NCBI GenBank assembly: GCA_015231955.1
Contig: JADGAN010000002.1
Coordinates: forward strand, 1-64,000
DNA: 64,000 bases
Source of the DNA: Oligoflexia bacterium
Lineage (GTDB): Bacteria > Bdellovibrionota > Bacteriovoracia > Bacteriovoracales > Bacteriovoracaceae
Direction of reading: 5' to 3'
Shown here: one piece after another, positions 1-12,356 of the stretch
Numbering within the stretch: position 1 is the first letter of the stretch
Layout of the letters: every line of letters begins with the position of its first letter
The notes under the pieces: generated by a model
The model's database searches: none
Told to the model about the DNA's origin: nothing
Seen by the model: only the letters and a program-made list of their open reading frames with translations
Made by a program: the position numbers and the translations under genes

Positions 1-54
1 TACTTTGATCAATTTAAACTACCAAGATTGTATGATGAACTTAAACCGCGTTGA
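1..54 (+). CDS. Group II intron reverse transcriptase, C-terminal end (partial)
   Basis: The first 17 codons read as the extreme C-terminus of a group II intron-encoded protein (YFDQFKLPRLYDELKPR, then TGA at 52-54). The rest of the gene lies upstream of the window. The identification rests on what follows: the stop codon runs straight into an intron domain V, the arrangement usual in bacterial class C introns, where the reverse transcriptase frame ends at the start of domain V. The encoded protein would act as maturase and reverse transcriptase for intron splicing and mobility. Whether the full protein is intact cannot be judged from here. Confidence 0.75.
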   Translation, partial: YFDQFKLPRLYDELKPR

Positions 55-125
55 ACCGCCTTGGTACGGACCCGTATGCCAGGTGGTGTGGGAGGGAAAG
101 CCCGCGAGGGCCTACCTATCCCGCT
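53..125 (+). ncRNA. Group II intron domains V and VI (3' end of intron)
   Basis: Bases 55-60 (ACCGCC) pair with 82-87 (GGTGGT), and TGG 62-64 with CCA 79-81. A two-base bulge (77-78) follows, then TACG 65-68 pairs with CGTA 73-76. This is the classic domain V hairpin with its dinucleotide bulge. Domain VI follows: GGGA 90-93 pairs with TCCC 119-122, and an inner GCCC/GGGC stem (100-103/108-111) is closed by a GCGA tetraloop, with an unpaired A in the 3' strand (near 114 or 118) as the likely branch point. The exact 3' splice site is uncertain by a few bases. Class C introns usually sit behind transcription terminators. The intron marks the left side of an AT-rich accessory region. Confidence 0.8.
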
Positions 126-390
126 AACTCCAGTTCCTCGCAGGATAGAAGAAATATGTTTCATGCAATGACCCATTGAGTTCTGTTCATTACAGATTTT
201 ACTTACATATTTTAGTGAATGCTAATGTTACGTTACGCCATATCCCTATAATATTTATATAAAATAAAGGACATGATTTATCTGTAGTGCTTTGGCCCCC
301 TTAAACGCCGTAGTAAAATCTCATTCCCACTATAGTCCATGAAATATCAATATATTAGCACGATTTATATCACTCAAGGTGTAGGATTTT

Positions 391-410
391 TGCATACATG
401 TTTGTATGCA
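391..410. promoter_or_regulatory. Perfect 8-bp inverted repeat in the 126-534 leader (operator candidate)
   Basis: The stretch 126-534 between the intron and the first full gene holds no convincing gene. Its clearest feature is TGCATACA, four bases, TGTATGCA (391-398/403-410), a perfect dyad typical of a dimeric regulator site. A TTGACA hexamer sits at 435-440, but no good -10 box lies at normal distance, so a promoter is only suggested. A TATAAT at 247-252 has no matching -35. The dyad lies about 125 bases upstream of the response regulator start at 535 and could control the whole island operon. Confidence 0.4.
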
Positions 411-534
411 TCAAAAATAAGCCCTCTCTTCCTATTGACAATGCACGTTCGGTTAATGCAAAAGAATAGGTCAAAACAATACTAGATCGTAAGAGTCCAA
501 TATCGTATTAAAGAACCGTTGTGGGGGATGGCAA

Positions 535-1950
535 GTGGTTACTAAAATAAAAGTACTTGTTGTAGAAGATATAGAGGTTTTTAGGCAGAACATCGTTAAG
601 CATGTCTCTAGACATGCAAATCCCATTGCTGTTTCCAATTTTGAAGAGGCCAAACGCGCTCTACTAGAGCAGCACTTCGACATGGCATTAATCGACATTA
701 ATCTCAATGGAGAAGATACCGGGTTTGAACTGCTGAAATTGGCAAAGAGAAAGAATATTTTTTCGGTAGTCTTAACCAATTATGATGATAGCGATTATAT
801 TGCTACTGCATATAAGCTTGGTTGCAACCTTTTTTTAACCAAGGATCAATGTGAAGTAGTTATTGAACATGTAATAAAAGGGCGTATTAGCGAAGAATTA
901 GCAAAAGCTGCCACTCCCAATGCAACTTTTGAGCAGATGGATATTTTCAAAGAAAATTATATATCCATAAACAAACTAATCACCACAGAGATTAATTTAC
1001 TTAAGGCCCGCATGTTTGATAAGCGGCCAATATTCCTTATAGGTGAGACAGGAGTTGGCAAAAATTTACTTGGACAGCTGATTCATCAATCACTCTATCC
1101 TAATAATAATAACTATACCGTATTTAAATGCTCACAGTACTCAGAAAAGGATGTAGATAGTACTCTTTTTGGGAAGATAACTGGCATTGAAAACGGAGTG
1201 GTTGCTTACGATAAAGGTTTGCTTGAACTGGCCCAAAATGGAACTCTTTATATTGAGGAAATAGGCGCCTTAAGTTTATCAGTGCAAAAAAAATTAGCGA
1301 AGGCCTTAGAGGAAAAGTGTTTTATCCCTCAAGGTGCTAGCGAATATAATGCCATAACTCCTATCTCAATTGATTTTCAGTTAATTGCTAGTACTTCTGA
1401 CAATATCTATAAAAAAATAGAAGAAAATCTTTTCTTGGCATCTTTGTTACAGAGGATACACACCATCACACTGGAAATTCCACCGCTAAGGAAAAGAATA
1501 GAAGATGTTAAGTTGCTAATTGAACATTATTTTAGAAACGGTATAGATGGAACAGATATCAATAATATTTCGCTTGGGTCCAGCGCTATTGAGGCCCTTT
1601 GCAGATATGATTTTCCTGGTAATGTTAAAGAGTTAAAGACAATTTTGTTATCCCTTTCATTAAAGAAATTCGGAAATCTTTCTGTAGAAGATTTACCCAA
1701 AAGTCTGCTGCATGTTTATAGGATATATACATCATTTAATGACAGCAGCCGCTTTGCAACTGATGACCAAGTTAAATACATAAAAAAAGTTGGATTCAGA
1801 AAATTCGTGGACAAATTAGAATCTGAGGTGGTCAAAGATTTTATTAAAAAACATGGGCATGCGGAGAAAGCATACAAGGAACTTCGTATAAATAGACATA
1901 AATATTATAAGATAATCAGGATGCTCGGTGAGGAGGCAAAATTATCATGA
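535..1950 (+). CDS. Response regulator, REC plus AAA+ (NtrC-like with degenerate GAFTGA) plus helix-turn-helix
   Basis: This 471-aa cytoplasmic regulator starts with GTG behind a G-rich RBS. Residues 1-120 form a receiver domain with the acidic pair VVED, phospho-acceptor Asp in LIDINL and the Lys in FLTKD. An AAA+ domain follows, with Walker A (GETGVGKN), Walker B-like LYIEEI, an arginine-finger region and the conserved FPGNVKEL. The C-terminus (HGHAEKAYKELRINRHKYYKII) resembles a Fis-type DNA-binding helix-turn-helix. The oddity is the loop that should read GAFTGA to touch sigma-54: here it reads GIENGV. The protein may therefore regulate without sigma-54, as known for some NtrC-family members such as TyrR. 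Its natural input is the hybrid kinase at 8107 or the phosphotransfer-like protein at 1947. Confidence 0.85.
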   Translation: MVTKIKVLVVEDIEVFRQNIVKHVSRHANPIAVSNFEEAKRALLEQHFDMALIDINLNGEDTGFELLKLAKRKNIFSVVLTNYDDSDYIATAYKLGCNLFLTKDQCEVVIEHVIKGRISEELAKAATPNATFEQMDIFKENYISINKLITTEINLLKARMFDKRPIFLIGETGVGKNLLGQLIHQSLYPNNNNYTVFKCSQYSEKDVDSTLFGKITGIENGVVAYDKGLLELAQNGTLYIEEIGALSLSVQKKLAKALEEKCFIPQGASEYNAITPISIDFQLIASTSDNIYKKIEENLFLASLLQRIHTITLEIPPLRKRIEDVKLLIEHYFRNGIDGTDINNISLGSSAIEALCRYDFPGNVKELKTILLSLSLKKFGNLSVEDLPKSLLHVYRIYTSFNDSSRFATDDQVKYIKKVGFRKFVDKLESEVVKDFIKKHGHAEKAYKELRINRHKYYKIIRMLGEEAKLS

Positions 1951-2168
1951 CAGGATCTAATATGGATAATAACAAGGCAATGGAAACTCGAACACTTAGG
2001 CATGATTTGAAAAACAGTTTGCAAGTTGCAAAAATTTTATTTGTGACTATTGAGAATCAAATAAAAGAAGGTGTGTCACTAGATAGCAATCAATTAGATG
2101 ATATGAGTAAAAATCTATCTTTAATGAATGCAAAATGGGAAGAGTTAAAAAATATAATAGTTAAATAG
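1947..2168 (+). CDS. Small orphan DHp (histidine phosphotransfer-like) protein
   Basis: The gene encodes 73 aa and overlaps the regulator stop by four bases (ATGA), so it is probably translationally coupled. An AGGAGG-like site lies 11 bases upstream, and an in-frame ATG at 1962 is an alternative start. The segment RHDLKNSLQVAKI looks like the H-box of a histidine kinase dimerisation domain, where H is phosphorylated. A second amphipathic helix (LDDMSKNLSLMNAKWEELKNI) would complete a two-helix hairpin. No ATP-binding domain follows. By analogy with Spo0B-type or Hpt proteins it could relay phosphate between the hybrid kinase and the neighbouring regulator, or titrate the regulator. The assignment rests on motif reading only. 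Confidence 0.6.
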   Translation: MTGSNMDNNKAMETRTLRHDLKNSLQVAKILFVTIENQIKEGVSLDSNQLDDMSKNLSLMNAKWEELKNIIVK

Positions 2169-2231
2169 ATAAAATAATTAGTAATCACATGAAGATGAAA
2201 TATTAAGTTTATAGAAATTTCTGGGACAGCA

Positions 2232-3425
2232 ATGGGAACACAGTTTTCAAAACATTTTTATATAGTCTGTTTGTTTTTTTTGGTATCTACAGTATTCTCA
2301 TTCATTAACCCTTTAATGATTCCAATATTGGTAGCAAATGGTAGCCAAAGTGCGCAAACGGCATCAATAATTCAAACGATAGCTTTTTTATGTGCAGGCA
2401 TATTTCAACCAATTTTAGGTAGGATGATAGACAGCAAACAGTTTAAACTAGCATCCTTTTCAATTGCAGCATGCATCCTATTCGGCTTAGGAAGTTTTTG
2501 CATAGGTAACCCAATGTTTATCACAATGGGAATGGTCTTTTTTTCGATTGGTTTTGTGTCCCTCTTCACAATGACTATATTTTGCTTGGTTGGTTGTGTA
2601 CATGAAAGCAAAAGAACCAAAGCTTTTACCATTGTCTACATGATTTTAAACATTGGTGGGGCAATTTCTGGTCTAATTGCATATCTGTTTATGGGTAAGT
2701 TCAAGCAACAATTGATCGCCATTGATTTAATTACCACTATACTTGCCACCTTAGTTATTTTTTTAACGATACATCTATCAATAAAAAATAATAATTTTAA
2801 CTATACATTCAAAAAAGAAAAGATTTCCTTTCGAGATGATATTATTCCTAAATGGCATCTGTTTTTGGGATTAATTTTCTTGCAAATACCCATGTTTTCT
2901 CATGTATCAATTTTTCCTTTATATTTTAGTGAAAAAGGGCTTGATGCACAGAAGCTTACTTCACTGATATTCATCGTTAATACTGCGTTTATCATTGTAT
3001 GTGCACCAATTGTATCAAAAATATTTGAAAAGATGGGAATATCGAAGACCTTTTTTATTGGCATGTTTTTTCTGGCAATCGGACAGGCGATCTTTCCTAC
3101 TTTTTTAAATAATTTTGGAATATTTTCTTCCACAGTTTTATGGACTATTGGTGAATTAATAATTTTACCTAAAATTGTAGTATTCATCTACTCCATTGTT
3201 GGCGAAGACAAAAAGGGATTGGCCTCAGGAATAAATACGGGACTGTTATCAATAGCGAAAGTGATGAATCCGCTATTCGGATTGCTGGTACTCAAATCAA
3301 ATGTAGTGGCCATATCACTGTTGCTTTTTGCTATTCCTATAATTGGATACGCATTAACATCACTAGATTATATTTTTAAAACAAAACGCACAATTACAAC
3401 AGCAACCTGTGTTGCCAGTGAATAG
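2232..3425 (+). CDS. MFS transporter, 12 membrane segments (candidate peptide exporter)
   Basis: This 397-aa protein is made almost wholly of hydrophobic helices in two halves of about six, with a polar loop near residues 190-205 (KNNNFNYTFKKEKISFRDD). GRMIDSKQFK at residues 59-68 is the usual MFS loop 2-3 motif. It belongs to the sugar-efflux/multidrug group of the major facilitator superfamily by overall look. The RBS is weak. It lies directly before the 25-aa peptide gene, and a strong hairpin separates the two. In this context it is the only transporter candidate for moving the peptide product across the inner membrane. The substrate is inferred, not shown. Confidence 0.8.
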   Translation: MGTQFSKHFYIVCLFFLVSTVFSFINPLMIPILVANGSQSAQTASIIQTIAFLCAGIFQPILGRMIDSKQFKLASFSIAACILFGLGSFCIGNPMFITMGMVFFSIGFVSLFTMTIFCLVGCVHESKRTKAFTIVYMILNIGGAISGLIAYLFMGKFKQQLIAIDLITTILATLVIFLTIHLSIKNNNFNYTFKKEKISFRDDIIPKWHLFLGLIFLQIPMFSHVSIFPLYFSEKGLDAQKLTSLIFIVNTAFIIVCAPIVSKIFEKMGISKTFFIGMFFLAIGQAIFPTFLNNFGIFSSTVLWTIGELIILPKIVVFIYSIVGEDKKGLASGINTGLLSIAKVMNPLFGLLVLKSNVVAISLLLFAIPIIGYALTSLDYIFKTKRTITTATCVASE

Positions 3426-3432
3426 TGAGTGG

Positions 3433-3460
3433 AAAATATTCTCGATTAAGAGAATATTTT
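3433..3460 (+). terminator. Perfect 11-bp hairpin after the MFS gene
   Basis: AAAATATTCTC (3433-3443), a six-base loop and GAGAATATTTT (3450-3460) form a perfect stem ending in T residues. It lies eight bases past the MFS stop and 27 bases before the peptide gene. It could be an intrinsic terminator or attenuator that uncouples the peptide gene from the regulator and transporter genes. The T tract after the stem is short, so termination may be partial. Confidence 0.55.
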
Positions 3461-3486
3461 TATAAAAACCCAAAAAGGAGAAGAGC

Positions 3487-3564
3487 ATGAAAATCATTCC
3501 TTCGAACAAAAGTAATTCTAGCGCTTATGCCGCAATGAATCCGCTTTCTCGTCCAAGAATGTAA
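3487..3564 (+). CDS. Short peptide gene, candidate RiPP or pheromone precursor (25 aa)
   Basis: A 25-codon frame starts at an ATG with an excellent ribosome binding site (AAGGAG 3475-3480, six-base spacing). It begins MKIIPSNKSN and ends MNPLSRPRM. It has five serines and no cysteine or threonine, with a basic, proline-rich C-terminal stretch. No relative is known to me. Support comes from context: it is bracketed by a hairpin on each side and precedes a YcaO enzyme, a peptidase and a peptide-binding receptor. A leader-core split near Ala-Ala (residues 15-16) is possible, giving a nine-residue core. Serines could be substrates for azoline formation, or the backbone for thioamide or amidine formation. 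The frame is very short, so chance cannot be excluded. Confidence 0.6.
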   Translation: MKIIPSNKSNSSAYAAMNPLSRPRM

Positions 3565-3576
3565 CAGAGAAGCGGA

Positions 3577-3614
3577 AGCTGCCATTTCGCTCTCATAGGG
3601 AGTAAGTGGCAGCT
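3577..3614 (+). promoter_or_regulatory. Stem-loop between peptide gene and YcaO gene (attenuator or 3' stabiliser)
   Basis: AGCTGCCATTT (3577-3587) pairs with AAGTGGCAGCT (3604-3614) over 11 positions with a single U-G wobble. A short inner CTC/GAG stem lies inside the loop. It starts 13 bases after the peptide stop and lacks a U tract. Stem-loops at this place are common in peptide gene clusters, where they raise the amount of precursor message relative to the enzyme genes. Confidence 0.5.
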
Positions 3615-3677
3615 ATCTAGCTAACGTATGCCTTAAATTTAGGAAAAAAGGTAAGTATTATACAGGAGAAATAGCTA

Positions 3678-5537
3678 ATGTTGCGACAAACGAGATCTTA
3701 TAAGGAAGATACACCTTTAAACACAGTTCATAAACTCAGAGGAATCTTACATGACATTGGCATGTATGTTTATGAAAGTGAATGGTACAATCCTTATAAC
3801 AATATTTACTCTGTACGTTTGAGCACAGAAGAAAAAATCTTGTTTGGAACTAATGGCAAGGGTACCAGTAGACAATTTGCTCTTGCTAGTGCTTATGCTG
3901 AGTTTATGGAGAGGTTGCAAAATGGTCTTTTTCATAACATGCCAGCATGTTTATATAACCGAATAAAAGATAAGTGTGGGTTTAATTTTTATCCAGATGA
4001 AGTTCTCTTGGATGCCAACCAAATTGCCCTATTACCTGCTATTGTTTTAAAAGATATTTTTAATGTGAGTGATGAGAACTTAGTATCAAAAATTACCGCA
4101 TATTTTTCTCAATTGGAAAATGAGTCGTGCCCTGGAAAATGTGTTGGTGTTCCTTACTATAACATAAAGAGTGGTGAGATAATTCATCTCCCTTTAAATC
4201 AAATTTTAGAGACGACTGGTTCAAATGGCATGTGCGCCGGTAATACAGAATATGAGGCGGTTTTTCAAGGGCTGTGTGAAATTCTTGAACGTTATGCTGC
4301 AAGTGAGATATTTTATAACAAATTATGTCCTCCAACATTGCCAAGAGAATATTGGGAGCATTGTACTGAAGAGTGCTCAATTATAGATGAAATTGAAGCT
4401 ACTGGTGAATATAAGGTCGTAGTAAAAGATTTTTCAATTGGTAAAAAGCTGCCAGTTTTGGCAGCAATATTAATAGATAAAATGGCCAATACTTATAGGA
4501 TAAAAGTTGGCAGTGATACCTCTTTTAAAGCAGCACTTGGTCGCTGCCTAACAGAGATGTATCAGGGAATAAAATGCAACTCTGAATTCCGAAAAGAGTT
4601 TTTCAAGATCCCTACAAACGAACTGGAAATGTTTATCCATGATGATACCAAATCACAAAAATCCAGAAGTGAAGAGTTTACTAACTTCAATATTGACGGT
4701 CGAGGTCAATTTCCTATGGCTCTTTTCGGAGAAGATCCAGATTACTCAATAGATATTAACTGTTTTACTATCGGCGCTTCATTTAGAGATGAAGTCTGCA
4801 ATATTATAAATTTAATAAAAAATTTGAATTTTGATGTTTATATAAGAAATGTCTCTTTTCTTGGATTTCCATCATTTCATATCTATGTACCAGGAATGTC
4901 ATCGTTAGGTGTGAAAAAAGTATTTGATAACAATAGTGGCGATACCTACACGCAAATAAATTTTTCAAAAATTCGGAAAATATTATATGACTTCGATGCC
5001 AATGCCACTAAAGATCTTATGTGTCTTGCAGAGGAACTACAAAAAGTTAATTATAAAAGTACCATGGCACAAATACTATTGCTGGATGTGAAAAAAACTT
5101 GTGAATGGCATCATATGACAGTGGCACTTTTTTTATCGCTGCTATGGCAACATTTAGGCAATTTTTCAAAAGCAAAACATTTTCTAGAAATACATGTTGC
5201 TGCTAAAACACATGATAACGACTATTACCAGGTAGCGATTGCATATTTACAGATACGACAAACTACCGCTGATGTTAAACATATTCATAATCATTTAACA
5301 CTGCTTGGATATGATAATGAGTTAATAATTGAAATAACCAGAGACTTAAGTAGCAGCGAGGGTAAATTTAAATATATTCGTTTTCCTAAATGTCCCAATT
5401 GTGAAGCATGCTCTTTACGTGGAGAGTGTATTCAAGAGAAAAAAATAGAACACATAATGGCCATGTACTCTAAATTCAATAAGAAGATTCTACCTGTGAA
5501 TTTTATAAATATTAACGCAGATTATACAGCAATTTAA
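3678..5537 (+). CDS. YcaO-domain protein with TPR-like region and C-terminal Cys4 cluster
   Basis: YcaO enzymes use ATP to activate amide backbones, making azolines, thioamides or amidines in peptides. This 619-aa protein follows E. coli YcaO along its length as I remember it: FGTNGKGTSRQFALASAYAEFMERL near residues 55-80, the ATP-site block TGSNGMCAGNTEYEA...EILER (residues 180-205), and a helical TPR-like part around 470-560. It lacks the PxPxP C-terminus of azoline-forming YcaO enzymes. Instead it ends with four cysteines (C572, C575, C578, C584) spaced CX2CX2CX5C, a likely zinc or iron-sulfur site absent from E. coli YcaO. The RBS AGGAG is present. Its place after a tiny peptide gene argues for a peptide substrate, but E. 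coli-type YcaO proteins have no settled peptide substrate. Confidence 0.85.
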   Translation: MLRQTRSYKEDTPLNTVHKLRGILHDIGMYVYESEWYNPYNNIYSVRLSTEEKILFGTNGKGTSRQFALASAYAEFMERLQNGLFHNMPACLYNRIKDKCGFNFYPDEVLLDANQIALLPAIVLKDIFNVSDENLVSKITAYFSQLENESCPGKCVGVPYYNIKSGEIIHLPLNQILETTGSNGMCAGNTEYEAVFQGLCEILERYAASEIFYNKLCPPTLPREYWEHCTEECSIIDEIEATGEYKVVVKDFSIGKKLPVLAAILIDKMANTYRIKVGSDTSFKAALGRCLTEMYQGIKCNSEFRKEFFKIPTNELEMFIHDDTKSQKSRSEEFTNFNIDGRGQFPMALFGEDPDYSIDINCFTIGASFRDEVCNIINLIKNLNFDVYIRNVSFLGFPSFHIYVPGMSSLGVKKVFDNNSGDTYTQINFSKIRKILYDFDANATKDLMCLAEELQKVNYKSTMAQILLLDVKKTCEWHHMTVALFLSLLWQHLGNFSKAKHFLEIHVAAKTHDNDYYQVAIAYLQIRQTTADVKHIHNHLTLLGYDNELIIEITRDLSSSEGKFKYIRFPKCPNCEACSLRGECIQEKKIEHIMAMYSKFNKKILPVNFININADYTAI

Positions 5538-5574
5538 AGATCATAATAACCAATAATGAGAGGGAACTTATTTT

Positions 5575-6645
5575 ATGAATATTGAAAAATTGTTAACTGA
5601 TGTTTTTAATCCTCAAGCAAATGATGTAGCAGTTGTATTATGTGATATCCCTCATACCAATATTGAAGATAATTCTAAGTGGTATGAGAGGCGTATAATG
5701 GCCCAAGAGTGGAGAGAGGCATTTATCTCTTTAAGTCAAAAAATCGGGTTCAAGGTATTACCGTTAATTGAATTCCCTGCATCAGGTGCTCATAGTAAAA
5801 ACGTTCCGATGGAATTAGGTACTCCTCGTTCAATAGATAGTGCATTTGCTCAATCAACATTGGCAGTAGCATTAACCGAATTCTCCATAACACCTTTGCT
5901 AATGAATTACTCCAAACAACGTAAGAATTTTAGATCAGCATCTCTACCTATTGTTGAAAAGAGAATGGAAAAAACAGCTTTAGCTGCTGACTACAAGGAA
6001 GTATACAGGAGATGCTTGGTGGTTGAAGAGCTAATGAAAAACATAAAAGGTGCAAATGTAAAATTCTCAACAGGCCATGATTGCTATTTTGATTTAAGAT
6101 TTAGAACTGTTCGCAAAGACTCCGGGAGACTACATCAAGGAGACTCTCCTGAATTCCCATTTATGAATTTACCCAGTGGGGAAGTATATATGGTTCCTTA
6201 CGAAGGAGAGAAAGATTGCAAATCTGAAACCGCCGGTCTTATTCCTGCATTTATCAACAATGAATCTGTCGTGTTAAAAATAGCAGCGAACAAAATTGTT
6301 GAGGTTAGCGACTTTGAAACTAGTGCCGAAAATTGCAGGAATCTATTTGCACAAGATCCTGCCAGAAGGAATATTGCAGAATTTGCGATAGGGTGCAATC
6401 CTTGGGCAGTAGTTACTGGCAATATCCTAGAAGATGAAAAAGCAGGGTTTCATTGGGCATTCGGAAGAAGTGAACATATTGGCGGTATTATTAAACCAAG
6501 TGACTTTATTTCATCTGAAAATGTATTGCACGTGGATGTAGTTTACGCAAAAGATAGTAAATATCAGGTAGACTTCTTAGAGTTCATTTATGATGACAAT
6601 AGTAAAAAGAACATTATCGAAAATCGGGAATATCTAATTTTTTAA
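5575..6645 (+). CDS. M29-like (AmpS/PepS type) metallo-aminopeptidase
   Basis: The protein has 356 aa, cytoplasmic, with no signal peptide. It shows the marks of the M29 family: NLPSGEVYMVPYEGE (conserved NLPxGEV), then RRNIAEFAIGCNPWAVVTGNILEDEKAGFHWAFG and a terminal HVDVVY, which carry the Glu, His and Asp metal ligands. The N-terminal third also fits the family. M29 enzymes remove N-terminal residues using two metal ions. It follows the YcaO gene by 37 bases in the same direction, so one transcript is likely. In this setting it could trim the leader of the modified peptide after an endopeptidase cut, or degrade the peptide signal. No peptidase with a clear endoproteolytic fold is in the cluster. 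Confidence 0.75.
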   Translation: MNIEKLLTDVFNPQANDVAVVLCDIPHTNIEDNSKWYERRIMAQEWREAFISLSQKIGFKVLPLIEFPASGAHSKNVPMELGTPRSIDSAFAQSTLAVALTEFSITPLLMNYSKQRKNFRSASLPIVEKRMEKTALAADYKEVYRRCLVVEELMKNIKGANVKFSTGHDCYFDLRFRTVRKDSGRLHQGDSPEFPFMNLPSGEVYMVPYEGEKDCKSETAGLIPAFINNESVVLKIAANKIVEVSDFETSAENCRNLFAQDPARRNIAEFAIGCNPWAVVTGNILEDEKAGFHWAFGRSEHIGGIIKPSDFISSENVLHVDVVYAKDSKYQVDFLEFIYDDNSKKNIIENREYLIF

Positions 6646-6674
6646 TTTTTTATTTTTTTATAGGATTTAAAGCT

Positions 6675-8120
6675 ATGAACATAATTTTGAAAAAAATGCT
6701 ACTAACATGTATGGTTTTATCTACCATATTCGTATTCGAAATTTGCAATGCAGAAACTCTTCGGATAAATATTGAAAAATGGCCTTCAGGGCTAGACTTC
6801 GTGAATGGTCTTACCCTAGAGTCAATTGTTATCGGCAATCAAGTTTATGATACATTATTAAAAAAACTCCCATCTGGAGAAATCATTCCAGAACTAGCAG
6901 AGTCATGGGATTACGAGGAGGGGCATAAGGCAATAAGGTTCAAATTAAAAAAAGGTATCTACTTTTCTGATGGAGTTAAATTAAATACTGAGCATATAAG
7001 GTTTATATTCAATAAATATAATAAGCTTAAATTGAAAAAATCAAAGGATACTATCCAGGCCATTGCTCGTTTTGAAAAAATAAATGAGCTAGAGTTTATT
7101 ATTAGATTAGAGCATGAAGATTCCAAGTTTTTAGATAGGTTAACTGATCCTGAAAATATTGTTGCCAGAAGCACAAAAGGAATGCCTTGCGCAATAGGAA
7201 CAGGAGCATACTACATAAGCAATGTTCAAGAAAAAGAAGGAGTAATTATATTAAGTAGGAACCAATACTCAAACATTCCTACTGATTTTTCTACTATAAT
7301 ATTTACTACCAAGAAAACTTCCGATGCAGATATTTCATTTGTTAAACCTAACTCTGATAGTAAGCTGATTGCTCAAAATTATTTTGACACTGAAGTACAC
7401 TATTTAGGAATATTTTCAGATCATCCAGACTATAAGGATCTGAATAAGAGATTATATTTAATCTCATTTTTAACAGAGGATGTACTCAAATCAAGCGAAG
7501 AGGTACATAAATATAAAATAGGAGGTATTATCCCATATGGCCAGTTTGGGCATTCTCAAGATGCTCTATTACCCATAGGCAAGTCACAAAAGATCCATTT
7601 CCCCTCTCCTATAGAAGTTGTTTATTATGCCGATTTTCATCAAAAGATAGCAACAGCATACTGTGATAACTTAAAGAAAAATGGACTGATTTGTAATTTA
7701 CAAAAGATAACTGCTGATGAGTATTTAAAAAAAACAGAGAAAGGAGAGTTACAGGTATACTTTATGAGGCAGAAGTCTACGGGATTTAGCTCAGAGGATA
7801 TATTAAGCTTTTTCACAACTGATAGTATTTTTAACTTTTCTTTCTATCATGACAGCAAAAATCCATTGGCAAAAAAATTAAACAAACTATTTCTTAGCAT
7901 CATTAAAATTCCATTTACGGATCAAGAGCTATTAAAAAAGTATTATATACAAATGGATGAAACTATTATTGCCAATGGATTGGCAAAACCATTTAGATAT
8001 GGCGGGGAAAAATCCGTCTGGCATACTAAAAAAATTATCCTACCCAGAATAGGTACAAATGGCCCATTTGGCATGATGCTCAATGAAGTAAAGCTAGCGA
8101 GGGAAAATGAAAAACGATAG
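6675..8120 (+). CDS. Periplasmic peptide-binding protein (ABC family 5), likely kinase co-receptor
   Basis: This 481-aa protein has a cleavable signal peptide (hydrophobic stretch about residues 8-22, cleavage near CNA-E). The mature part is typical of family 5 binding proteins for oligopeptides and related ligands: ANQVYDTLL-like start, GEIIPELAESWDYEEGHKAIRFKLKKGIYFSDGVKL and the later GTGAYYI. No ABC permease or ATPase gene is nearby. Instead the gene overlaps the start of a membrane histidine kinase by 14 bases. This pairing recalls binding proteins that sense a ligand for a kinase (LuxP-LuxQ is the classic case). I infer that it binds the peptide product of this cluster in the periplasm and presents it to the kinase. 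Confidence 0.85.
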   Translation: MNIILKKMLLTCMVLSTIFVFEICNAETLRINIEKWPSGLDFVNGLTLESIVIGNQVYDTLLKKLPSGEIIPELAESWDYEEGHKAIRFKLKKGIYFSDGVKLNTEHIRFIFNKYNKLKLKKSKDTIQAIARFEKINELEFIIRLEHEDSKFLDRLTDPENIVARSTKGMPCAIGTGAYYISNVQEKEGVIILSRNQYSNIPTDFSTIIFTTKKTSDADISFVKPNSDSKLIAQNYFDTEVHYLGIFSDHPDYKDLNKRLYLISFLTEDVLKSSEEVHKYKIGGIIPYGQFGHSQDALLPIGKSQKIHFPSPIEVVYYADFHQKIATAYCDNLKKNGLICNLQKITADEYLKKTEKGELQVYFMRQKSTGFSSEDILSFFTTDSIFNFSFYHDSKNPLAKKLNKLFLSIIKIPFTDQELLKKYYIQMDETIIANGLAKPFRYGGEKSVWHTKKIILPRIGTNGPFGMMLNEVKLARENEKR

Positions 8121-10455
8121 TAAAATATTGCCTTTTTCACTGCTATTAAATTTGAAATTTAAAAGAATATTTTTCTCAGTAGTACTAATTGGGATGCTGT
8201 TACTGGTACTCATTGATCTCCTATTATCATTCAATAACGAGATAAAAAAGCTTACAACTGATCTTGTGTCTTTTGAGAGGAGTCAGATAAAGAAACTGCA
8301 AAACTATGATTACACTGAGGTCAGTGAAGATCTCTCATCGTTTTATTATGTTAGGCCTTTAAAGGCAATTGCTATGGTAGATAGATATGGGATTACCATA
8401 TCAGAAATTAACAATGTAAAATATAATCACTTATCAAATGATAATGGGAGTTACCTGTACTACGGTAAAGAAGCAATTGCGCTTGTCTATAATAAAAAGA
8501 TCGAGACAAAAAATGGTGAATACTTAGGAGCAGTTATTGTTAATATAGACATCTTTAAACTGCTTATCCCCATTTTGATTCAACTTGGTATACTTTTGCT
8601 GATGCTTGTTACAATGTTTGTTTCATTAAAGATTATTTTAAGTAAAAATATTAAAGCAATGATTTCGCCATTGACGAATTTCACTGAAAATATTTCAAAA
8701 ATGAATAACAATACTGATGTCTCAATAAGTCAATTTGAGTTAAAAAACACTAAAATTGCAGAACTGATATCTTTAAGTAATCAGTTCATCGAATGGCAAC
8801 AACGTTCCTTGGTATATGATAAATTAAAACAAGAAAATACTAAATTAAATGCTATTGCCAGTACCACTCAAATGCTGGCACACGACGTCCGCAAACCCTT
8901 TGCCAGTATAAAGTCAGTTTTAAATATGCTGGATATATTGAAAGATAATCCCTTACAGCTAAAACAGGCAAAAGTTGATATTGAAAAATCAATTAAAAAT
9001 GTAGAGTCGATGATTGCAGATATAATGGATTTTTCTCGAGAAGTAAAATTAGAAACAAAACCGCAATCAGTAGTGTCACTCCTTGATTTCTCTATTAGAC
9101 AAACTGCTCAAGGATACAAAAATGCAGCGATAAATTTCAAATATGAATTGTCTAATCAACACTGTCCCCTCGTTGATGATGAAAGGCTGGCAAGAGTATT
9201 TGGCAATATTATAGGAAATGGTATTGAGGCTATCACAGTAATTGGAGCGAAAGAAAACGGTAATATCTGGATTAAATCCAAAGATTCAGGAGATTGGATA
9301 GAGATTGTTATTGGTAATGATGGACCAGCATTTAAAGAAGAAGATATTCCTAAATTATTTGATTCTTTCTTTACCAAGGGAAAAAAGAAAGGTACAGGTC
9401 TAGGACTTGCTTCCGTCCAAAAAATTATTTATTTACATGGTGGTCAAATAGAAGCAAGAAATGCCTCTAGCGGCTTAGGAGTTGAGTTTATAATAAAACT
9501 CCCTGCATCGGCAGAAAAAGAGTTTCATAATGATGATATTTTACCAAAAAATATTCAAGATATTACGTTTAAAGTAACCACCAAGGATGAATCATTAGTA
9601 AATGATTCCATCAAGAAGATTGCTTCGTCAGGAACTGTCAAAATGCTGCTTTTAGAAGATGAAGCACTCTATCGAGCATCTGTAAGAAATACCATCAAAA
9701 ATGCCCCAGAGTTACATAAAGTATTAACTTTATATGAAGTTCACACAGTAGAAGATGCCATTAAAGTTGTTGAACAAGAAAAAATAGAATGGGCCATAGT
9801 AGATATTGATTTAGGTGAAATTAAAAATGGTTTTGATTTTTTGAGTGAGGCCAGAACAAGGTTTCCAAAGCTAAAGTCTATCGTCCATTCCAATAGATGC
9901 ATAAAAGAAGATAAAGAGCGAGCTAGGAACCTTGGAGCAATTGATTTTGTACCGAAACCCTTGGAGTTGGTTAATTTAATAGATCTATTATCCCATGGAA
10001 GTTGCACCGACAATAAAAAAAAAGATGCCTCCTCATCAAGTGTTAGTGCAAGTGCAACTAGCGATAAATTGACTATTAGCTTGAGTAAATCATCTAAAGA
10101 TAGTAGCACTGATGGAAATATGATCTATGATGCCCTTTTTCTAGATGACGATAAATACCTTCGTATGGGGTGGGATCTTGCTGCTAAAAACAAAAAGATT
10201 AAATTATTAACTATTGCTAAACCAGCAGATTTTTTTAAGCATGAGCACCTTCTATGTAAAGAACAAACGGAAATTTATGTTGATAGCAATCTTGGTGAAG
10301 AAGAAATTAGGGGAGAAGATTTTGCTATTGAACTGCACAGTAAAGGCTATAAAAAGATTTGCATGGCAAGTGGCCATGACAAGGAAAAGTTTGCGCACAT
10401 TGGATCATGGTTGTCCTGTAGGGGGAAAGATAGTCCGTGGGAAGAAGAGTGGTGA
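8107..10455 (+). CDS. Hybrid histidine kinase with two C-terminal receiver domains
   Basis: In 782 aa, a membrane helix at about residues 20-42, a periplasmic segment of about 110 aa and a second helix at about 153-178 are followed by a linker and the kinase core. H259 in MLAHDVRKPF is the phosphorylation site. The N box is GNIIGNGIEAI, and the nucleotide-binding glycines are in GNDGPAF and KGTGLGLASV. Two receiver domains follow: MLLLEDEALY...AIVDIDLG...FVPKP, and a more divergent DALFLDDDKY...EIYVDSNLG, ending in GKDSPW. Translation is probably coupled to the binding protein gene. The short periplasmic part suits contact with a binding protein. Output likely goes through the phosphotransfer-like 73-aa protein and the regulator at 535. 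Confidence 0.88.
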   Translation: MKNDSKILPFSLLLNLKFKRIFFSVVLIGMLLLVLIDLLLSFNNEIKKLTTDLVSFERSQIKKLQNYDYTEVSEDLSSFYYVRPLKAIAMVDRYGITISEINNVKYNHLSNDNGSYLYYGKEAIALVYNKKIETKNGEYLGAVIVNIDIFKLLIPILIQLGILLLMLVTMFVSLKIILSKNIKAMISPLTNFTENISKMNNNTDVSISQFELKNTKIAELISLSNQFIEWQQRSLVYDKLKQENTKLNAIASTTQMLAHDVRKPFASIKSVLNMLDILKDNPLQLKQAKVDIEKSIKNVESMIADIMDFSREVKLETKPQSVVSLLDFSIRQTAQGYKNAAINFKYELSNQHCPLVDDERLARVFGNIIGNGIEAITVIGAKENGNIWIKSKDSGDWIEIVIGNDGPAFKEEDIPKLFDSFFTKGKKKGTGLGLASVQKIIYLHGGQIEARNASSGLGVEFIIKLPASAEKEFHNDDILPKNIQDITFKVTTKDESLVNDSIKKIASSGTVKMLLLEDEALYRASVRNTIKNAPELHKVLTLYEVHTVEDAIKVVEQEKIEWAIVDIDLGEIKNGFDFLSEARTRFPKLKSIVHSNRCIKEDKERARNLGAIDFVPKPLELVNLIDLLSHGSCTDNKKKDASSSSVSASATSDKLTISLSKSSKDSSTDGNMIYDALFLDDDKYLRMGWDLAAKNKKIKLLTIAKPADFFKHEHLLCKEQTEIYVDSNLGEEEIRGEDFAIELHSKGYKKICMASGHDKEKFAHIGSWLSCRGKDSPWEEEW

Positions 10456-10814
10456 AAAAGCTTATTGCCAAGACAATCTGCAAATTTCTGAATAACTGTA
10501 AATTTTTTTTACATAATCTTGTTTATTTATCAAAATATAAAATAGCAATTCGTAGTCTTTGTACGTCTGTGACCTTAAAGCAAGCTAAGATAGGAAATGT
10601 AAGAGATTCATTAGTGTATTCATGGAAGATTCTACAGCTGCGAGAGCTGCTTAAAAGACCTGGATCTGATATTAAGGGGTGTGATAGTTGTAGCTCTAAT
10701 AGAAAGTGCGCTGGAGGATGTAGAGGAGAGGAGCTATTTATTAGTGGGGATGTTTTAGGTAGGACTGCTAGATGCGCTGACCTCAGTGACATACATCATG
10801 GAAACAACGTATAG
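10437..10814 (+). pseudogene. Remnant of a radical SAM enzyme: SPASM domain only
   Basis: An open frame of 125 codons overlaps the kinase end. From about codon 36 it reads as the C-terminal SPASM part of a radical SAM peptide-modifying enzyme: IGNVRDSLVYSWKILQLRELLKRPGSDIKGCDSCSSNRKCAGGCRGE, with the CX2CX5CX3C cysteine pattern and a last Cys in ARCADL. The radical SAM core with its CX3CX2C motif is missing, and the first 35 codons resemble nothing. A deletion between the kinase and this gene, perhaps tied to the nearby IS element, explains it. It implies that the ancestral cluster carried a second modifying enzyme. Expression as a short protein is possible but would lack catalysis. Confidence 0.7.
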
Positions 10815-10887
10815 TATTTTCTAAAATCAAGCCAACTAAATAACTCCGCTATTCCTCTGTTGCTGTTTCCTTTTTAGATATGCTCTT

Positions 10888-10906
10888 ATATCAGGACTTT
10901 CCCAAA
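10888..10906 (+). repeat. Left terminal inverted repeat of the IS element
   Basis: The 19 bases match the complement of 12357-12375 without mismatch. The transposase stop codon is 19 bases inside. Confidence 0.85.
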
Positions 10907-10924
10907 AATCATAAAATCTCAGGT

Positions 10925-12199
10925 CTAGGCAGCAAGCATATCCGAGTGTGATTTCTTTTCCGCAATAGTATCAACGGGCTTACTAACCATGCATTTGCTT
11001 CTTGCTTTTAATTTTAATAATTTCTTAGTGTTTACATTTTTGTCCTCTAAGAAAAAATTAATTGTTTTATTCATATTCTCGTGCCTTATTTTTTTTACCA
11101 TCAACCCAATGCTATCTCTACACAAAAGCTCACATTCCCCTCTGAAGTCTAGCAGCAAGTAGGTATAAATAATAAATGGGATACAGACGGTTAAATCTGA
11201 TCCTTCCTCCCCTCTGCATTCTAACTTCCCCCATGAAAGATTTTGTTTTAGATCTCGAAACATACATTCAATTTTCCATCTCGCTCTACTATATTTCCAA
11301 AGCTCTGCCCCAGACATTGAAAGGTTAGTAGTTGCATAAAAGGCAAATGGTGTAGTGCTGTTTTTCCCATTGTAAACTGCGATGACATTTAACAAGGTTG
11401 GAAGCTTTTTTATGTACAAACTTATCGAACTAAACCACTTCCTCTTTGTTAGATACTTTTTATTATTTGGGTTCAATCTAGCGACAACAGAATATCTCTT
11501 GAGGTGAATAAAAAAATTCCCAATAGTATCCCAGAGTTCTTTTTTGTTAGAGTGTGCATTCCTATTACTTCTCAATTCAACTACAATTTCAAAAACATGA
11601 TCATTGATTTTTTTGATGAATTCGGCCGCACTAAACCACGAGTCTGCAACAACTGGCAGTGTAGTAGGTATGCCATGCTCTCTTGCCTCTAGCACTAAGT
11701 CTGCTGCTAAATCGAGATCTGATAAGTAATCAGCTTCATTTTTTTTAGTCGCAAATCTATAACCCAAGGGAATTGCAAACCCATTCCTGATATCAACAAG
11801 TGCTATGATTATTACCTTTTGTCCAAAACAAATACCTTTACTGCTCTTCCACTTTCCAGTTCTGAAAATATTTTTCCCTGATTTAACATTGTCGGTATCA
11901 TCAATGGCCAAGCAAAAATTTTCTGGGTCTAATTCACCCTTGTACTTTCTCAATACACTGGCCCTTAATCTCTTCATAAATCTATTGCCTTTAAATTCCT
12001 GCACGGCCCTTGAGAGAGAGCTTACAGAGGCAGCATCAGGCACTGCTCTAACAACACCACAAAGGGAGGGGCAATTATAAAGATACATTGTAAAAAAACA
12101 GCAGAGCGAGTTATAGTCGATCTCTAGCATTAAAGAAATATCTTTGAACCGATCCGATAATGTTCTAGAGACTTTACAAAAGCTCAAATTAATTGTCAT
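10925..12199 (-). CDS. IS4/IS701-like DDE transposase
   Basis: The protein has 424 aa. DDE catalytic residues are visible: the first Asp in CLAIDDTDNVKSG, the second in LPVVADSWFSAAEF, and the Glu in YSRARWKIECMFRDLK. This last block gives R-x3-E-x6-K, the IS4-type signature with one extra residue after the Tyr. The gene fills most of the element and appears intact, so the copy may be active. The subfamily cannot be fixed by eye. A 157-base leader inside the right end (12200-12356) would hold its promoter. Confidence 0.85.
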   Translation of the reverse strand: MTINLSFCKVSRTLSDRFKDISLMLEIDYNSLCCFFTMYLYNCPSLCGVVRAVPDAASVSSLSRAVQEFKGNRFMKRLRASVLRKYKGELDPENFCLAIDDTDNVKSGKNIFRTGKWKSSKGICFGQKVIIIALVDIRNGFAIPLGYRFATKKNEADYLSDLDLAADLVLEAREHGIPTTLPVVADSWFSAAEFIKKINDHVFEIVVELRSNRNAHSNKKELWDTIGNFFIHLKRYSVVARLNPNNKKYLTKRKWFSSISLYIKKLPTLLNVIAVYNGKNSTTPFAFYATTNLSMSGAELWKYSRARWKIECMFRDLKQNLSWGKLECRGEEGSDLTVCIPFIIYTYLLLDFRGECELLCRDSIGLMVKKIRHENMNKTINFFLEDKNVNTKKLLKLKARSKCMVSKPVDTIAEKKSHSDMLAA

Positions 12200-12356
12200 A
12201 ATAAAATCATCGTTGTTGTTGTTTTTGGTTATGTTTTGGTCAATATATTCAAATATGACAACAGCGATTTGTCATTAGAAAATAAGGTTGCGGAAAAATC
12301 GATATCTTTACTTTCAATCGTAAAACTCAACTATTTAAACTGTGTCATAGGGAGTG

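Follow-up and report, generated by a model that had tools for sequence, protein, structure and literature searches.

A 25-codon reading frame in front of a YcaO gene in a Bacteriovoracaceae genome, a candidate precursor of a modified peptide

Results

The window, the 64,000-nt stretch of DNA analyzed here, is the start of contig C37 in the 5.6-Mb genome of an Oligoflexia bacterium of the Bacteriovoracaceae (GCA_015231955.1). Bases 1-12300 have a GC content of 34%, compared with 42% in the rest of the window, and this low-GC island is bounded by a transposase-like ORF (Table 1). Encoded in one direction within the island are, in order, a response regulator, a DHp-like protein, an MFS transporter, a 25-aa ORF, a YcaO protein, an M29-fold protein, a solute-binding protein (SBP), a hybrid kinase and the remnant of a radical-SAM maturase. 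Also present near the contig start is a group II intron-like match (54-124; 28 bits, cut-off 40).

Table 1 Features of the low-GC island and of the sister cluster on contig C27. Positions given without a locus name refer to the window.
Feature	Position	Strand	Basis
Response regulator, REC and AAA sigma-54-type domains	535..1950	+	Pfam PF00072, PF00158
73-aa DHp-like protein (RHDLKNSLQ)	1947..2168	+	No Pfam match
MFS transporter, candidate exporter	2232..3425	+	PF07690, 90.2 bits
Perfect AT-rich stem of 11 bp with a 6-nt loop, before the peptide	3433..3460	+	-12.8 kcal/mol, z -4.8
AAGGAG ribosome-binding site, spacing 6 to the ATG of the 25-aa ORF	3475..3480	+	
25-aa ORF, candidate RiPP precursor	3487..3564	+	ORF list, shuffle test, layout parallel on C27
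Strong stem-loop between peptide and YcaO, without T-run	3577..3614	+	-25.7 kcal/mol, z -5.2
YcaO protein, 619 aa, C-terminal CxxCxxCx5C motif, presumed maturase	3678..5537	+	PF02624, 152.4 bits
M29-fold metalloprotein, 356 aa	5575..6645	+	PF02073, 24.3 bits, below the gathering cut-off of 27; fold matches
SBP, SBP_bac_5, peptide/nickel type	6675..8120	+	PF00496, 83.4 bits
Hybrid histidine kinase with receiver domain(s)	8107..10455	+	PF02518, PF00512, PF00072
Radical-SAM maturase remnant, SPASM end only	10467..10814	+	TIGR04085, 27.0 bits, at cut-off
Transposase-like ORF, bounding the low-GC island	10925..12199	-	Family assigned by eye
C27 sister cluster	L123 7757-15994 and L124 546-4858 (G000)		Own-genome search with the SPASM remnant
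41-aa ORF between MFS and regulator, C27	L123 10526-10651	-	AAGGAG at spacing 6, as for the 25-aa ORF

The response regulator lacks the GAFTGA motif (LFGKITGIENG). Given this and the reduction of the radical-SAM maturase to its SPASM end, the island may be partly decayed. The DHp-like protein is possibly a phosphotransfer or docking protein. Pfam and NCBIfam scans of the island proteins, which use general rather than dedicated RRE models, identified no RRE-like domain, and no E1-like or TfuA family is among the Pfam matches of the eight island proteins scanned. A defence system was considered and rejected; PADLOC returned sigma-54-regulator models only, for the response regulator.

The 25-aa ORF encodes MKIIPSNKSNSSAYAAMNPLSRPRM, which contains no cysteine, and the YcaO gene starts 113 nt downstream of it. 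Its AAGGAG is better placed than the ribosome-binding site of any other of the eight island genes; that of the DHp-like gene, AGGAGG, lies at a spacing of 10. The initial annotation had proposed this cysteine-free frame, its superior ribosome-binding site, the YcaO gene behind it and a stem on either side, the upstream one perfect over 11 bp. All are borne out, respectively by re-reading of the coordinates and translation, by comparison of the eight genes, by the PF02624 match and by complementarity and folding.

We compared the ORF with dinucleotide shuffles of the 252-nt gap in which it lies (3426-3677). An ATG-initiated ORF of at least 15 aa behind a 6-nt SD match at a spacing of 5-9 occurred in 0.53% of 20,000 shuffles; the frequency was 2.1% with a 5-nt SD match and 4.5% with a 5-nt SD match and any start codon. 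Across 451 kb of the same genome, 6 of the 106 gaps of at least 100 nt, its own gap included, hold a comparable SD and ORF on either strand, and thus the pattern is not rare genome-wide. The 25-aa ORF is therefore favoured locally and is not exceptional for the genome. Its codon usage is neutral (log-odds of 0.24 bits over 24 codons), with a per-codon score that is equalled or exceeded by 23% of 168 intergenic ORFs. We found no known peptide family for the ORF, and no relative of the peptide outside its own genome among 129 genomes of the order, its own included (best other match, E 0.395). Peptide matches in other genomes at E values of 0.39-1.23 fall in stretches that, as examined, are unlike small peptide genes, and we read them as chance; plasmid matches (E 8) were also rejected.

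The arms of the upstream stem (3433-3443 and 3450-3460) are 100% complementary and those of the downstream stem (3577-3587 and 3604-3614) are 91% complementary. A terminator-like scan of the plus strand identified no terminator at either, and no T-run follows either stem. Folding indicates that the downstream stem leaves the YcaO ribosome-binding site uncovered. The 3′ arm of this stem coincides in part with a weak sigma-54-like match (3607-3621, 8/10), the like of which occurred in 0 of 500 shuffles of the gap; the island regulator is itself without GAFTGA. No Rfam family was found at the site of the ORF and stems. A repeat-element origin of the stems was rejected: an own-genome search with 3421-3680 turned up no convincing further copy (best other match 27 bases long, E 0.015), and the window contains a single occurrence of the palindrome, with 0.55 expected at three mismatches.

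The YcaO protein exceeds the cut-off of the general domain model TIGR00702 only and falls below those of the specific subfamilies. Its best NCBIfam match is the S12 accessory factor NF040716 (211.4 bits, cut-off 700), and its best sequence match in the PDB is the E. coli-type YcaO, a ribosomal protein S12 accessory factor. The model of the SagD-type azoline maturase, TIGR03604, gives 45.7 bits against a cut-off of 219.25. Unlike the E. coli-type protein, the island protein has its tail replaced by CxxCxxCx5C, a motif that occurs in 2 of the 41 proteins compared (the island YcaO and its nearest relative, L003) and is absent from the other 39. In a tree, an 11-row S12 group and 27 other rows are separated, with support of 100/100, from the YcaO and its one relative; branch lengths near 9 make this placement loose. 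On score, C-terminal tail and this loosely placed tree position, a housekeeping S12 YcaO was rejected as the default assignment.

The best other match to the YcaO among 368 genomes of the phylum is in genome G021 (34% identity). There the gene lies 41 nt after a cold-shock-like gene, a gap too short for a peptide ORF immediately before the YcaO. None of the genomes searched has the same YcaO in the same context, and no relative of the island MFS transporter at E 1e-15 was found among the 129 genomes of the order, its own included. A single-sequence structure model of the YcaO reached a pLDDT of 33.1.

The M29-fold protein has six candidate metal ligands (E203, E269, E288, H293, H319 and D321), whose order matches that of the CgnB zinc ligands by eye. 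Its structure model is modest (pLDDT 61.6, residues 269-327 below 50). With this model, the fold matches include the M29 aminopeptidases AmpT, AmpS and PepS (Z 11.6-13.0) and the dihydroxypyridine dioxygenase 7cn3 (Z 16.9), which scores above the crocagin proteins CgnE (Z 9.6) and CgnB (Z 8.5). The protein may be an aminopeptidase or a CgnB-like precursor-binding partner, and a function in oxidation would fit as well. M29-like relatives were identified in genome G104, of the same family as the window genome (48% identity), and in the Thermoplasmatales MAG CP070836 (L052 8980-10026; 41% identity), in both cases with no YcaO nearby in the stretch examined; the contigs of G293 and G294 in this comparison are under 4 kb. 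The L052 gene adjoins a dipeptidase-like gene.

The same genome encodes a sister cluster on contig C27. Its gene set comprises an intact radical-SAM/SPASM enzyme, an MFS transporter, a 41-aa ORF, a regulator, a DHp-like protein, two SBPs, a YcaO-like protein and a hybrid kinase. Also present is a 108-aa secreted-looking protein. Identity between island and C27 counterparts is 39.5% over 81 aa for the SPASM remnant and the intact radical-SAM/SPASM enzyme, 35% over 459 aa for the response regulators and 23% over 559 aa for the hybrid kinases. The DHp-like protein shows weak similarity (32.5% over 40 aa, E 0.002) to a 69-aa C27 protein in the same position. The C27 radical-SAM/SPASM enzyme matches the mycofactocin enzyme model best, scoring 138.9 bits against a cut-off of 265, and the C27 YcaO-like protein, at 286 aa, scores 20.3 bits with PF02624, below the cut-off of 25.7.

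The 41-aa ORF with its start signal was matched in 0.92% of 5,000 shuffles. A sigma-54-like site (9/10; 0.2% of 500 shuffles) lies 62 nt upstream of its ATG, and the regulator beside this site has an intact GAFTGA. Between the ORF and the MFS gene is a stem-loop (-15.6 kcal/mol, z -3.5) at which the terminator scan identified no terminator. No sequence likeness between the 41-aa and 25-aa peptides is visible, and the likeness is one of layout. The surroundings of the 25-aa ORF had been described in the initial annotation as the usual arrangement of a separately dosed precursor gene. The arrangement is supported, because the paralogous cluster repeats the order of peptide, stem-loop and processing gene; separate dosing is plausible, and against it stands the lack of a T-run at the stems.

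SBP/kinase modules were compared in related genomes at all 14 SBP matches, which come from 13 other genomes and include some short contigs. At six of these loci (L126, L127, L128, L130, L132 and L136) an SBP/kinase module includes a YcaO-like ORF of ~300 aa; in L126 the ORF belongs to another module, close to the one containing the SBP by which the locus was picked up. The Pfam match of these short genes begins near model position 114. It is above the YcaO cut-off in four of the five loci scanned (L127, L128, L132 and L136) and below it in L126, L130 being outside the scan. Six of the seven strong matches in the YcaO-like search had also gone into building its profile, which leaves L130 as the only independent profile match. 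Independent support otherwise comes from the Pfam YcaO matches, above the cut-off for L127, L128, L132 and L136 and below it for L126 and the C27 protein. In L125, an aKG-HExxH peptide hydroxylase-like gene (3706-4572; 33.4 bits, cut-off 40) and an MFS-like gene (28.6 bits, cut-off 33.4) lie between the SBP and the kinase. L125 also has a 69-aa ORF after the regulator. The other seven loci have no YcaO-like or HExxH-hydroxylase-like gene in the stretches examined.

Common to L128 (9998-10192), L130 (9710-9904) and L136 (8548-8742) is a 64-aa secreted-looking peptide encoded before the SBP. Between L128 and L136, 20 of its 29 changed codons are synonymous, so constraint can act on small genes of such modules. 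The 64-aa peptides differ from the 25-aa peptide of the window.

Discussion

The 25-aa ORF is probably a real gene, and we lean, by somewhat more than an even chance, towards its being a RiPP precursor for the adjacent YcaO. The ORF taken alone is weak evidence for this, and its neighbourhood, with the sister cluster on C27 and the YcaO-like genes at 6 of 14 SBP loci, is better evidence. The cluster as a whole would most likely be a previously undescribed form of RiPP cluster that includes a sensing module. From gene content and order we infer translation, modification, export and sensing of the peptide. The strong ribosome-binding site would give high peptide output, and the stem-loop past the stop codon may lower or uncouple expression of the downstream enzymes. 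The standalone YcaO could then modify the peptide, in an ATP-dependent reaction, at a backbone amide or at a serine, the site being a guess. The M29-fold protein might trim the N-terminus or, like CgnB, stand in for an RRE domain by holding the peptide for the YcaO. A precursor-holding role is possible because CgnB and CgnE are described as binding the 21-aa crocagin precursor and as being without aminopeptidase activity (PMC10070186). The product would leave the cell via the MFS transporter. The ligand sensed by the SBP and kinase may be peptide-like, and is perhaps the product itself, with the signal passing via the response regulator.

The ORF could instead have arisen by chance, in which case the substrate of the YcaO would be a cellular protein, as for S12-type YcaO, or a peptide encoded elsewhere. 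The peptide has no homologue and neutral codon usage, similar ORFs occur in 6 of 106 gaps, NCBIfam matches the YcaO best to the S12 accessory factor (211 bits, cut-off 700), and no peptide is encoded directly ahead of the nearest YcaO relative. We nevertheless consider a chance ORF unlikely, as such an ORF and start signal are infrequent in the local shuffles (0.53%) and the YcaO differs from the S12 group both in its C-terminus and in the tree (100/100, with very long branches). Furthermore, the MFS/SBP/kinase context and the layout repeated on C27 do not suit a housekeeping S12 factor.

Alternatively, translation of the short ORF may control the downstream stem-loop and hence the YcaO and later genes, the peptide having no role as a product. 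The stem is suitably placed for a regulatory leader of this kind, starting 12 nt past the stop codon and ending 63 nt before the YcaO start. However, no run of regulatory codons is apparent by eye, the scan identified no T-run or terminator, and the YcaO ribosome-binding site is outside the stem, and we find this explanation improbable. We give similarly little credence to a peptide pheromone, unmodified or no more than trimmed, that leaves the cell and is then sensed by the SBP and kinase, with the YcaO serving another step: an SBP of the peptide/nickel type does adjoin the kinase and regulator, and SBP-kinase modules recur in relatives, but the peptide has no signal peptide by eye, the next gene is the YcaO, and these modules are repeatedly accompanied by radical-SAM, YcaO-like or HExxH-hydroxylase-like genes.

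If the 25-aa ORF is a RiPP precursor, a wider and more tentative reading can be considered. Bacteriovoracaceae and their relatives may share an unnamed family of clusters in which a peptide-type SBP, a hybrid kinase and a regulator are combined with interchangeable RiPP maturases and small peptide genes, so that one operon both produces a modified peptide and senses it. Of the two copies seen in this genome, one would have the 25-aa ORF as its precursor gene. The interchangeable maturases would be a full YcaO, a short, N-terminally truncated YcaO-like protein, a radical-SAM/SPASM enzyme and an HExxH hydroxylase-like protein. We hold this reading, maturases included, to be possible rather than probable. 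If these proposals are right, modified ribosomal peptides are made by relatives of predatory bacteria, and the clusters responsible would escape gene annotation, since their precursors have 25-41 aa and several of the enzymes score below curated cut-offs. A standalone YcaO with an M29-fold partner and an SBP/kinase/regulator module would be a compact, testable case of how a YcaO without an E1-like partner or RRE finds its peptide. The same case bears on whether such products are weapons or signals.

Parts of this arrangement have parallels in described systems. The crocagin precursor CgnA is described as an 18-aa leader with a 3-aa core, Ile-Tyr-Trp, on which a dioxygenase acts (PMC10070186). 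The island is similar in its very short candidate precursor and, by fold matches, in the M29-fold proteins encoded alongside. It differs in that YcaO has 0 occurrences in the main text of that paper, and in that the island M29-fold protein, for which the model is modest, is ~50 aa longer. The account in PMC8442711 has bottromycin YcaOs functioning without a partner protein, and streptamidine-family precursors that are not Ser/Thr/Cys-rich; the peptides of its network are 31-89 aa long and are from Actinobacteria and a few Firmicutes. As described, these systems and the island have in common a short precursor, a candidate one in the island, near a standalone YcaO, and the island is without a second YcaO. 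Mycofactocin and other radical-SAM/SPASM systems are comparable to the C27 cluster, in which a small peptide ORF is near the maturase, the window having only the SPASM remnant. The open-access literature searched yielded no publication linking YcaO to M29, to Halobacteriovorax or to an SBP/kinase module in the way seen here.

A further SPASM remnant, on contig C114 of the same genome (L121 14600-14854; G000 C114:40596-40916), lies at the end of a small-molecule-like gene set in which we saw no copy of the peptide system. It contains stops and is 62% identical to the remnant in the window.
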